Source of the DNA: Candidatus Nitrospira allomarina
GTDB taxonomy: Bacteria > Nitrospirota > Nitrospiria > Nitrospirales > UBA8639
Assembly (NCBI RefSeq): GCF_032050975.1
Contig: NZ_CP116967.1
Span: forward strand, 1,547,001-1,611,000
Direction of reading: 5' to 3'
Length of the DNA: 64,000 nucleotides
This document shows positions 27,964 to 31,034 of the stretch, one piece after another; position 1 is the stretch's first letter, and the number at the start of each line of letters is the position of its first letter. The notes below the pieces were generated by a model, which saw nothing but the letters and a program-made list of their open reading frames with translations, did not search any database and was not told the DNA's origin. The translations under genes were made by a program, and so were the position numbers.

Positions 27964-28097
27964 TACTGTCGGCTCTTGAAAGTAAATGATTGATGTTTCG
28001 TAGAATAATTGCGACTAGGTTTATGGGGTCCGAATTAAGTAGTGGATGAAAAACAACGATAGTGCCGGGAAGAAATTGATCCAGAAAGGATGTATCA

Positions 28098-28172
28098 TGG
28101 TGGGCGATACTGGGATCGAACCAGTGGCCTCTTCCGTGTGAAGGAAGCGCTCTTCCACTGAGCTAATCGCCC
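28098..28172 (-). tRNA. tRNA-Val (CAC)
   Basis: Reverse-strand cloverleaf: acceptor GGGCGAT pairs with ATCGCCC, and the anticodon stem CTTCC/GGAAG encloses TTCACAC, giving anticodon CAC (codon GTG). The T-arm has TTCGATC, and CCA is encoded. It is 75 nt long. Confidence 0.95.
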
Positions 28173-28186
28173 GCGGGAGGCAATTT

Positions 28187-28214
28187 ATCATAATGCTGGG
28201 AGGGGAGCAATGAA
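28187..28214 (-). promoter_or_regulatory. possible tRNA-Val promoter
   Basis: Minus-strand TATGAT (28192-28187) lies 15 bases before the tRNA 5' end. The -35-like TTCATT (28214-28209) is weak at 16 bases. Confidence 0.3.
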
Positions 28215-28239
28215 GTCCGCGAGGATGACAATAGTTTTC

Positions 28240-28269
28240 TTGACGGTAGGAGAAAGTGTGGAGTACCCT
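28240..28269 (+). promoter_or_regulatory. possible pup promoter
   Basis: TTGACG (28240-28245), 18 bases, TACCCT (28264-28269), some 40 bases before the pup start and divergent from tRNA-Val. The -10 matches only in part. Confidence 0.35.
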
Positions 28270-28311
28270 GAATCAATAGGTGTTTCATCGACTTGACCAA
28301 GGAGGTGCACC

Positions 28312-28515
28312 ATGGACAAGCAAGAGCGTAAATACGAATCTCGAAAACCCAGCTCTCCTAAAGAAACAGAGGACGTTCAGGCTGATCCGAATGTTGCGGA
28401 GACAGGGCAACGTCTAAAAGAAGAAATGGATGAACTGGTTGATGAAATTGATAAAGTTTTAGAAGAAAATGCGGCTGAATTTGTCAAAAATTATGTACAA
28501 AAAGGTGGAGAATAA
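28312..28515 (+). CDS. pup: prokaryotic ubiquitin-like protein Pup
   Basis: Small protein tag that is ligated through its C-terminal glutamate to lysines of proteins destined for the bacterial proteasome. It has 67 residues. The first 30 are disordered, Lys/Ser/Glu-rich. Residues 32-58 (TGQRLKEEMDELVDEIDKVL and the following EENAAEF) match the helical part of actinobacterial Pup that binds the proteasomal ATPase, and the end is VQKGGE. Ending in Glu, it should need no deamidation by Dop. AAGGAGGTG (28299-28307) sits 4 bases before the ATG and is an almost perfect Shine-Dalgarno. No proteasome, PafA or Dop gene is in this window. Confidence 0.92.
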   Translation: MDKQERKYESRKPSSPKETEDVQADPNVAETGQRLKEEMDELVDEIDKVLEENAAEFVKNYVQKGGE

Positions 28516-28859
28516 ATGCGTGAGATTCATTGATTTCTAGAAATTCTCTCCTGCCCTCTTTCACTCGCCAGATATATTAACTCTCTTGGCATTCTCTGTT
28601 CTTCTTAAGGTCATTTTCAGTGAAGGTCTTCCGGCCTCAAATCTTTCGCATCGCATTTTGTCAGGTTCAGCCCGATGATTGCGCCTTTTGAGTGACCTGT
28701 CCCTTTAGGTATGGGGAAGTTGAACCTCTTCCTTGCTGTGTTCCTCTGGATGTGGGGCGCTAATTACCGATTCTGAAAGGGAAAGGCAAAGCATTTTTCT
28801 CTGTTTTTTGTTATGATTCGTCGGCAATGTCCCAAGCCAATTGGATGAAAGACTAAAAG
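28516..28859 (+). other. 344-base gap between pup and relA/spoT
   Basis: No credible gene or RNA is seen. Near its right end, TGT-TATGAT (28809-28817) is an extended -10 promoter motif about 43 bases before the ATG of the relA/spoT gene, without a clear -35. The rest is T-rich and unstructured to the eye. Confidence 0.4.
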
Positions 28860-31034
28860 ATGGGTGTGACGCATTTGACCGATATTGTACAACTTATGGA
28901 TCAGGTAAAAGCCTACTACCCCGAGGCTGATACCGACTTCATCAAGCGAGCTTATGACTATTCCGCGAAAGCTCATGAAGGTCAAACCCGACGTACGGGC
29001 GAACCCTATGTCCAGCATCCGTTAGCGGTCGCTGGGATTTTAACTTTTTTGAAATTGGACGTTCCCGCGATTGTGGCTGGACTCTTACATGACACTCTTG
29101 AAGATACCGTAGCGACGAGAGCCGAGTTAGAAAAGGAATTTGGAAGTGACGTGGCTCGTTTGGTGGAGGGCGTCACAAAAATTGGGCAAATTCCTTTTAA
29201 AACTGATGAAGAGAAACAGGCGGAAAATTTCCGCAAGATGGTTCTCTCGATGGCTGATGATATTCGAGTGGTGTTTATCAAGTTAGCGGATCGATTGCAT
29301 AACATGCAGACTCTTGAAGCGTTGTCGGACGAAAAACGCAAAAAAATTGCACAAGAAACAATGGAAATTTATGCACCGCTAGCCAACCGGCTTGGTATGA
29401 GTTGGATTAAGCAGCAGCTAGAGGATTTGTGCTTCCAATATTTGGAACCGGATGCCTGGTCTCATTTAAAGCTACGGTTAGCTAAAAAGGATGAGGAGCG
29501 CCAGGAATATATTCAATCCCTTATTCACTTGGCTCAGCAAGCTCTTTTGGACGCAGGGTTACCAGGACAGATCGATGGACGTCCTAAGCATCTCTTTAGC
29601 ATCTATCAAAAAATGGAGCGCCGGTCGGTATCTTTTGACGAAATCTTTGATTTGACAGCGGTTCGTATTGTGACGGATACCAAAATGAATTGTTACGCCA
29701 TTTTGGGATTGCTGCATTCCATTTGGCCTCCCGTCCCTGGTCGCTTTAAGGACTATATTGCGACTCCACGTTCGAACTTGTATCAATCGTTACACACGAC
29801 AGTCGTTGGCCCACAAGGAGAGTATGTGGAATTCCAAATCCGGACGGCGGATATGCATCGAATTAATGAATACGGTGTGGCAGCCCATTGGCTCTATAAG
29901 GAGCCTGGAAAAGTTGGCGAACGGGATGAACAGGTTTTCAGCTGGCTCCGGCAGTTTGTGGAATGGCACAAGGATCTTGCCGATAACCGCCAGTTTATGG
30001 ATTCGGTTAAATTGGATTTATTCCATGATGTTGTGTTTGTGTTTACGCCCACGGGGGAAGTGCGGGAAATCCCTGTTGGGGCCACTCCATTAGACTTTGC
30101 CTATGCGATTCATACGGAAATCGGAGATCATTGTGTCGGGGCAAAAATTAATGGGAAATTAGTTCCTCTCCGTTATCAATTAAGCAGTGGGGATATGGTA
30201 GAAATTCTGACCTCTCCCTCGCAGGTACCTCATCGAGGTTGGTTGAAATTTGTCCGAACTTCCCGGGCCAAAACGAAAATCAAGCATTGGTTTAAAGTTG
30301 AAGAGCAAAAACGTGCACTGGAACTTGGGCGACGGCTGTTGGAACAAGAATTTCGGAGACATAACCTTCCTGTCGCACAATCTTTGAAATCTGATCGCCT
30401 TTCATCAATGGCTAAGGCAAAGGGCAGTGAAACGGTGGATGAATTGATTCGGCAGGTTGGATTCGGCCGTCTGTCTCCGGATCAAATTGTCAGTCACTTT
30501 CACGAAGGTGCCGAGCAAGGGCCTTCTTCTCACACGAAGGTCGTCTCCCACACCCCTCAGCAAAAGCTCCCGGGACTCCTTCGGGAGGGATCTGTGAAGT
30601 TTGGGGGAACTAAAGATGTGTTGATGCAACTCTCCAAGTGTTGTAAGCCTGTCCCTGGTGAGCCGATTCGTGGATATATTACTCGTGGGAGAGGGTTGAC
30701 CATTCATGCGATCGATTGTCCGAACTTTCAATCATTAGAATGGGATCACAATCGTTTGGTGGAGGTGGAATGGGATTCGGAGCTTGACGGCACGCATTCA
30801 GTTGAAGTGTCAGTTTTGACTCTGGATCGAACTGGTGTGTTGGCTAAGGTGTCCGCTGGAATTTCTCAATGTCAAGCTAATATTACCAGGGCGGAGATTT
30901 CTACCAGGGAGGATCGAAAGGCCGTATTGGACTTTGTTATCGAAGTAAAAAATACTGCCCACCTTGAACTCATACTGCAGGAAATTCAACGAGTTGACGG
31001 CATTCTTTCTGCTAAGCGAGTGCGAGGATGGTAA
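28860..31034 (+). CDS. spoT: bifunctional (p)ppGpp synthetase/hydrolase
   Basis: Makes and degrades the stringent-response alarmone. It has 724 residues. The hydrolase domain is intact (His53, HDTLED 77-82, the ED at 81-82), so hydrolysis should work. The synthetase domain follows (about 235-345: GRPKHLFSIYQKM, FDLTAVRIVTD). A TGS domain starts near residue 390 (VFVFTPTGEVREIPVGATP), then the KCCKPVPGE motif near 593, and an ACT domain ends the protein. It is the long RSH type. Its N-terminus is close to the pup gene. It ends 18 bases before the convergent DUF192 gene. Confidence 0.95.
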   Translation: MGVTHLTDIVQLMDQVKAYYPEADTDFIKRAYDYSAKAHEGQTRRTGEPYVQHPLAVAGILTFLKLDVPAIVAGLLHDTLEDTVATRAELEKEFGSDVARLVEGVTKIGQIPFKTDEEKQAENFRKMVLSMADDIRVVFIKLADRLHNMQTLEALSDEKRKKIAQETMEIYAPLANRLGMSWIKQQLEDLCFQYLEPDAWSHLKLRLAKKDEERQEYIQSLIHLAQQALLDAGLPGQIDGRPKHLFSIYQKMERRSVSFDEIFDLTAVRIVTDTKMNCYAILGLLHSIWPPVPGRFKDYIATPRSNLYQSLHTTVVGPQGEYVEFQIRTADMHRINEYGVAAHWLYKEPGKVGERDEQVFSWLRQFVEWHKDLADNRQFMDSVKLDLFHDVVFVFTPTGEVREIPVGATPLDFAYAIHTEIGDHCVGAKINGKLVPLRYQLSSGDMVEILTSPSQVPHRGWLKFVRTSRAKTKIKHWFKVEEQKRALELGRRLLEQEFRRHNLPVAQSLKSDRLSSMAKAKGSETVDELIRQVGFGRLSPDQIVSHFHEGAEQGPSSHTKVVSHTPQQKLPGLLREGSVKFGGTKDVLMQLSKCCKPVPGEPIRGYITRGRGLTIHAIDCPNFQSLEWDHNRLVEVEWDSELDGTHSVEVSVLTLDRTGVLAKVSAGISQCQANITRAEISTREDRKAVLDFVIEVKNTAHLELILQEIQRVDGILSAKRVRGW

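Follow-up and report, generated by a model that had tools for sequence, protein, structure and literature searches.

A displaced pup gene upstream of relA/spoT in Candidatus Nitrospira allomarina and its separation from the proteasome operon throughout the Nitrospirales

Results

The pup locus

The stretch of DNA analyzed here (the window; 64,000 nucleotides, bases 1547001-1611000 of the closed, 4.55 Mb genome of Candidatus Nitrospira allomarina) carries at 28312-28515 on the forward strand a pup gene coding for a prokaryotic ubiquitin-like protein (Pup) of 67 amino acids with a C-terminal Gly-Gly-Glu. The translated protein is MDKQERKYESRKPSSPKETEDVQADPNVAETGQRLKEEMDELVDEIDKVLEENAAEFVKNYVQKGGE, which finishes in VQKGGE, and the gene is preceded by the Shine-Dalgarno sequence AAGGAGGTG at 28299-28307 (+), where a GGAGGT-like sequence is found in most of the order. 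Upstream lies a divergent tRNA-Val(CAC) gene at 28098-28172 (-), present in the clade of the window and in some relatives and replaced elsewhere by hppA or recA; downstream, at 28860-31034 (+), is a gene for a relA/spoT-family (p)ppGpp synthetase/hydrolase (775 bits to TIGR00691). Genome searches for pafA, dop, mpa and prc gave no match within the interval 1547001-1611000. The open reading frame, its VQKGGE end, the Shine-Dalgarno sequence, the tRNA-Val and relA/spoT flanks and the lack of ligase or proteasome genes nearby had all been reported in a preliminary description of this DNA, and each was found as described.

The protein scored 75.1 bits against the Pfam Pup family PF05639 (cut-off 27) and 58.7 bits against TIGR03687 (cut-off 41.45). 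Codons 30-67 (28399-28512, +) cover the predicted Mpa-binding helix and the PafA/Dop-binding C-terminal tail, as aligned with the Pup of the structures 3m91 and 3m9d. Residues 30-67 aligned without gaps to the Mpa-bound Pup 3m91_B of the PDB (43.7 bits, E=2.5e-10), so that the putative central helix matches the segment of Pup held by Mpa. When the gene was compared with those of eleven relatives, the changes were mostly synonymous and the variable part was the N-terminus. Whole-gene dN/dS was about 0.03-0.06 against the closest species, and across residues 30-67 it was 0-0.01 at dS near or above 1. The GG[EQ] end was invariant among the 135 copies of Pup fetched (duplicates included). The profile scores, the PDB match and the predominance of synonymous change confirm the earlier identification of 28312-28515 as a real Pup gene, under strong purifying selection. 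A search of the whole genome by tblastn and HMM revealed no second Pup.

Partner genes elsewhere in the genome

The genome encodes four members of the Pup-ligase family, two proteasomal ATPases, four subunits of the 20S type and HslV, but the window itself has none of these. The partner genes form two clusters, A and B. Since the hslV gene is also present (C1:557439-557948, L008), the genome encodes three proteasome-type peptidases, namely 20S-A, 20S-B and HslV.

Cluster A (C1:169714-176138, locus L019), about 1.4 Mb from pup, has the order mpa-dop-prcB-prcA-pafA and no pup; the gap between dop and prcB, 42 bp long, contains none. All five products passed the canonical cut-offs: Mpa-A with 732.8 bits against TIGR03689 (cut-off 504.75), Dop-A with 518.7 against TIGR03688 (492.3), PrcB with 290.5 against TIGR03690 (191.9), PrcA with 293.2 against TIGR03691 (139.05) and, narrowly, PafA-A with 552.8 against TIGR03686 (551.3). 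The best matches of PafA-A and Dop-A were solved PafA and Dop structures, respectively (384 bits for PafA-A against 4b0t), and PafA-A keeps the catalytic-loop Asp (YQDTGCHPEY, compared with YLDVGSHPEY in C. glutamicum). Mpa-A matched mycobacterial Mpa with 635 bits. Its GHYF end resembles the GQYL with which the mycobacterial protein finishes, and the 22 cluster A sequences read at this point all end in GHYL or GHYF. Thus a Pup ligase, a depupylase, Mpa and the 20S subunits are all encoded in the genome.

The preliminary description had proposed a genome search for pafA, dop, mpa and prcA/prcB as the check, and had named a genome devoid of pafA, a proteasomal ATPase and proteasome subunits as the outcome that would speak against its reading. 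Such a genome is not what was found, as the search returned a full set and, in fact, two. The statement that the gene sits alone holds for its separation from the enzymes, but not in the sense of having no partners, since cluster A is most probably its set. The idea of an orphan tag was likewise ruled out by the whole-genome searches.

Cluster B (C1:3580341-3587105, -; locus L020, 6342-13106) was recognized by profile matches as a complete UBact system with an Mpa-like ATPase, Dop-like and PafA-like proteins, two 20S subunits and UBact. This UBact (P0002) has 77 residues and an RTGE end, and lies above the cut-offs of PF20513 (69.9 bits) and NF033388 (72.7 bits). The enzymes of cluster B are divergent and score below the canonical cut-offs, PafA-B far under that of PafA. 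Mpa-B ends in SQIV. Unlike Mpa-A it has no C-terminal Tyr motif, and it may therefore dock differently on the 20S-B core. As called, the Dop-like and Mpa-like frames of this cluster overlap by about 100 bases, and a gene for an RRM-type RNA-binding protein stands directly upstream of the cluster (L020 13307-13639, -). A weak extra UBact-like match, below the cut-off at 26.1 bits, was seen in another member of the order (G105, C1:1039919-1040017).

Co-occurrence of Pup, UBact and ligases in Nitrospirota

Pup, UBact and the ligase family were scored in 118 Nitrospirota genomes and their combinations tallied by hand. Pup was present in 53 genomes and UBact in 43, and 54 had members of the ligase family. 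The 42 genomes with both tags carry three to five ligase-family genes (exactly four in 40 of them), the 11 with Pup only carry two each, and the single genome with UBact only has two, in a cluster B-type set; the other 64 have none of the three. Among these 118 genomes the tags and the ligase numbers match without exception. Three of the Pup-only genomes (G048, G055 and G107) belong to the Nitrospirales and eight lie outside the order. In those three pup is displaced although the Pup system is the only one present, which ties the displaced gene to cluster A.

Displacement of pup in Nitrospirales

Outside the order, pup directly follows dop in the operon of each of the 13 genomes that have Pup, whereas in 40 of 40 Nitrospirales genomes it lies outside the operon, either on the same contig at a distance of 43 kb to 1.4 Mb (21 genomes) or on another contig (19 genomes). 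The f3, f4 and f14 genomes combine both systems with an operonic pup, which suggests that the displacement did not coincide with acquisition of the UBact cluster. The surroundings of displaced pup were read in 18 survey loci and in 80 taken from named genomes, which are mainly Nitrospira and other Nitrospirales; some genomes belong to both sets. A relA/spoT gene lies downstream on the same strand in all 88 loci with enough flank, and recJ stands between the two in 72 of those. No Pup-pathway enzyme gene was found near displaced pup in any of 99 flanks. The genes upstream vary by clade, with hppA in most; recA takes this place in one genome, in both its copies, and a TPR lipoprotein gene accompanies tRNA-Val in the clade of the window. 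In one locus of this clade (L129, 8200-12690) about 4 kb are inserted between pup and relA/spoT, and one gene of the insertion encodes a protein whose end is PEP-CTERM-like.

The recJ and relA/spoT genes are adjacent, with no pup, in five outgroup genomes (G083, G001, G008, G010 and G019), where pup is either in the operon or missing altogether. The comparison suggests that recJ-relA/spoT is the older pair and that pup moved to its front, most simply in a single event before the Nitrospirales diversified. In the window there is no recJ remnant between pup and relA/spoT, and neither the RecJ protein of a relative nor TIGR00644 revealed recJ in the genome, while the RecJ family was matched in 13 of 14 control genomes; the relative's RecJ protein also had no match in G095 and G103. 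Loss of recJ therefore left pup adjoining relA/spoT.

A promoter-like element upstream of pup

Comparison across relatives revealed a conserved promoter-like element, CTTGACG-N17-GTACCC, at 28239-28268 (+). The motif CTTGAC[GC] lies upstream of pup, 69-142 bases before the start of the gene, in 54 of 56 dereplicated Nitrospirales regions from related genomes, whereas first-order Markov shuffles gave an expectation of about 3%. The second half, about 17 bases further on, is variable (TATCCT, GTAAGG, GTAGGC). A scan of 28000-28900 for consensus promoters and terminators gave nothing above threshold; the strict consensus misses the element because its -10 half departs from TATAAT. The element fits a putative sigma-70-type promoter dedicated to pup.

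The C-terminal Glu and Dop

The preliminary description noted that this Pup ends in Glu and would not need Dop for deamidation. The Glu end is there, but it does not free the system from Dop. Of the 135 copies 121 end in GGE and 14 in GGQ, and the two forms alternate between close relatives, as in NPIRA02 (L126, GGQ) and NPIRA01/04 (L130/L131, GGE). The dop gene is kept in GGE and GGQ genomes alike, hence Dop is not dispensable despite the Glu end. The Glu end is shared with the Pup of C. glutamicum, and actinobacteria with a Glu-ended Pup, such as this one, retain dop for tag removal (PMC3511204). The Gly-Gly-Glu end is therefore ordinary in the phylum and the need for Dop remains. A special adaptation was ruled out as an explanation of the Glu end by the switches between close relatives and by the presence of dop with both kinds of end.

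Discussion

The window gene encodes an ordinary Pup protein in an unusual, long-conserved genomic arrangement. It resembles actinobacterial Pup (M. tuberculosis, C. glutamicum) in length, charged N-terminus, helix and VQKGG[EQ] tail, residues 30-67 being strongly similar to those of the M. tuberculosis protein. Unlike actinobacterial pup, the gene is 1.4 Mb from pafA, dop and prc and has a promoter-like element of its own. It shares the family, the enzyme set and the GG[EQ] end with the operonic Pup of other Nitrospirota (G083, G095, G103; Leptospirillum, PMC3511204, PMC2588565), in which pup lies between dop and prcB, whereas in Nitrospirales it lies upstream of recJ-relA/spoT. The UBact system of cluster B parallels the Pup system in having a tag, a Dop/PafA-like pair, an Mpa-like ATPase and 20S subunits in one cluster, and both tags end in Gly-Glu. 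It differs in its distinct RTGE-ended tag, in enzymes under the canonical cut-offs and in an Mpa without the C-terminal Tyr motif.

Our main reading, to which we give a probability of roughly 90%, is that the genome has no Pup but the one in the window, which provides the pup-less cluster A with its tag in trans. Similarity to the canonical enzymes and the co-occurrence pattern both argue that Pup would pair with cluster A rather than with cluster B. By analogy with the actinobacterial system, PafA-A would phosphorylate the gamma-carboxylate of the terminal Glu of Pup and join it to target lysines, with no prior deamidation. The Pup helix (about residues 30-60) would then bind the coiled coil of Mpa-A, the disordered N-terminus would be threaded and the target degraded by the 20S-A core, while Dop-A would take the tag off. 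Pup is mostly disordered. Cluster B presumably does likewise with UBact. As pup appears to be transcribed apart from its enzymes, the supply of tag could be set independently of the ligase and the proteasome.

Whether the separation has a function is a different matter. One proposal is that it provides a separately regulated supply of Pup tied to the recJ-relA/spoT neighborhood, and so to the stringent or starvation response, helping the cell to run the Pup and UBact systems unmixed; we regard this as rather unlikely. A neutral event, the insertion of pup next to a pre-existing recJ-relA pair, is enough to account for its adjacency to relA/spoT, and a link of pup to (p)ppGpp drawn from that adjacency alone is speculation.

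Other readings of the displaced gene were also weighed. Pup could be a tag common to both systems, working also or even mainly with the cluster B machinery, since the two systems coexist in 42 of the 53 Pup-bearing genomes, making contact in the cell likely, and their ligase families are homologous. We consider this improbable. G048, G055, G107 and eight genomes outside the order keep pup without UBact, in one genome a set of the cluster B type is retained but Pup is absent, and the cluster B operon has its own tag inside; moreover, Mpa-B is without the C-terminal Tyr motif and PafA-B is far below the PafA cut-off. Even less probable is that pupylation has stopped and that what remains of the gene is decaying or has taken on another role, such as regulating relA/spoT. 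The position of pup, away from its enzymes and close to relA/spoT across the whole order, would agree with this, but residues 30-67 are nearly unchanged at dS values around 1 or higher, the GG[EQ] end does not vary, the gene has its own promoter-like element and, as the only Pup, it is always kept together with cluster A; its neighbor is explicable by the insertion mentioned above.

That the gene encodes a UBact-type modifier instead of Pup is practically out of the question. UBact is known from Nitrospirota and is also GE-ended, but the window protein (P0001) matches Pup at 75 bits and had no match to the UBact models (PF20513/NF033388) at E up to 10, and the UBact of this genome is the other gene, P0002, with its RTGE end. 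UBact identity was thus ruled out by the profiles, and of the term "Pup/UBact-type" used in the preliminary description only Pup applies here, UBact being the separate gene in cluster B.

Pup and the proteasome were already known in Nitrospirae (PMC2588565, PMC3511204, PMC7947786), and pup has been published as invariably adjacent to a pafA gene (PMC2588565). UBact is listed as a family by both Pfam and NCBIfam. No pafA-family gene adjoins the window pup, the distance being about 1.4 Mb; the published adjacency is a regularity and not a defining feature of the protein. The apparently new feature is that tag and enzymes are separated across the order Nitrospirales, an exception to that adjacency. 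A literature search that covered mainly open-access papers, and not the original UBact publication, found no report of a displaced pup or of both systems in one Nitrospira cell. A whole order, the Nitrospira nitrite oxidizers among its members, keeps its tag gene elsewhere under a separate promoter-like element, and most of these cells have a second complete tag-proteasome system. They offer a natural setting for studying what keeps two ubiquitin-like pathways separate within a single bacterium, and for asking if the supply of tag is regulated apart from the ligase. Pup is usually treated as part of one compact locus and gene-neighborhood searches depend on that, so annotators who seek pup solely beside pafA would wrongly call the Nitrospirales systems tagless.

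The Nitrospirales-type pup-recJ-relA locus was also seen in two MAGs labelled Nitrospinota (L143 and L148), with relA 68-72% identical to that of the window. These contigs are probably mis-binned or mislabelled, transfer being possible.
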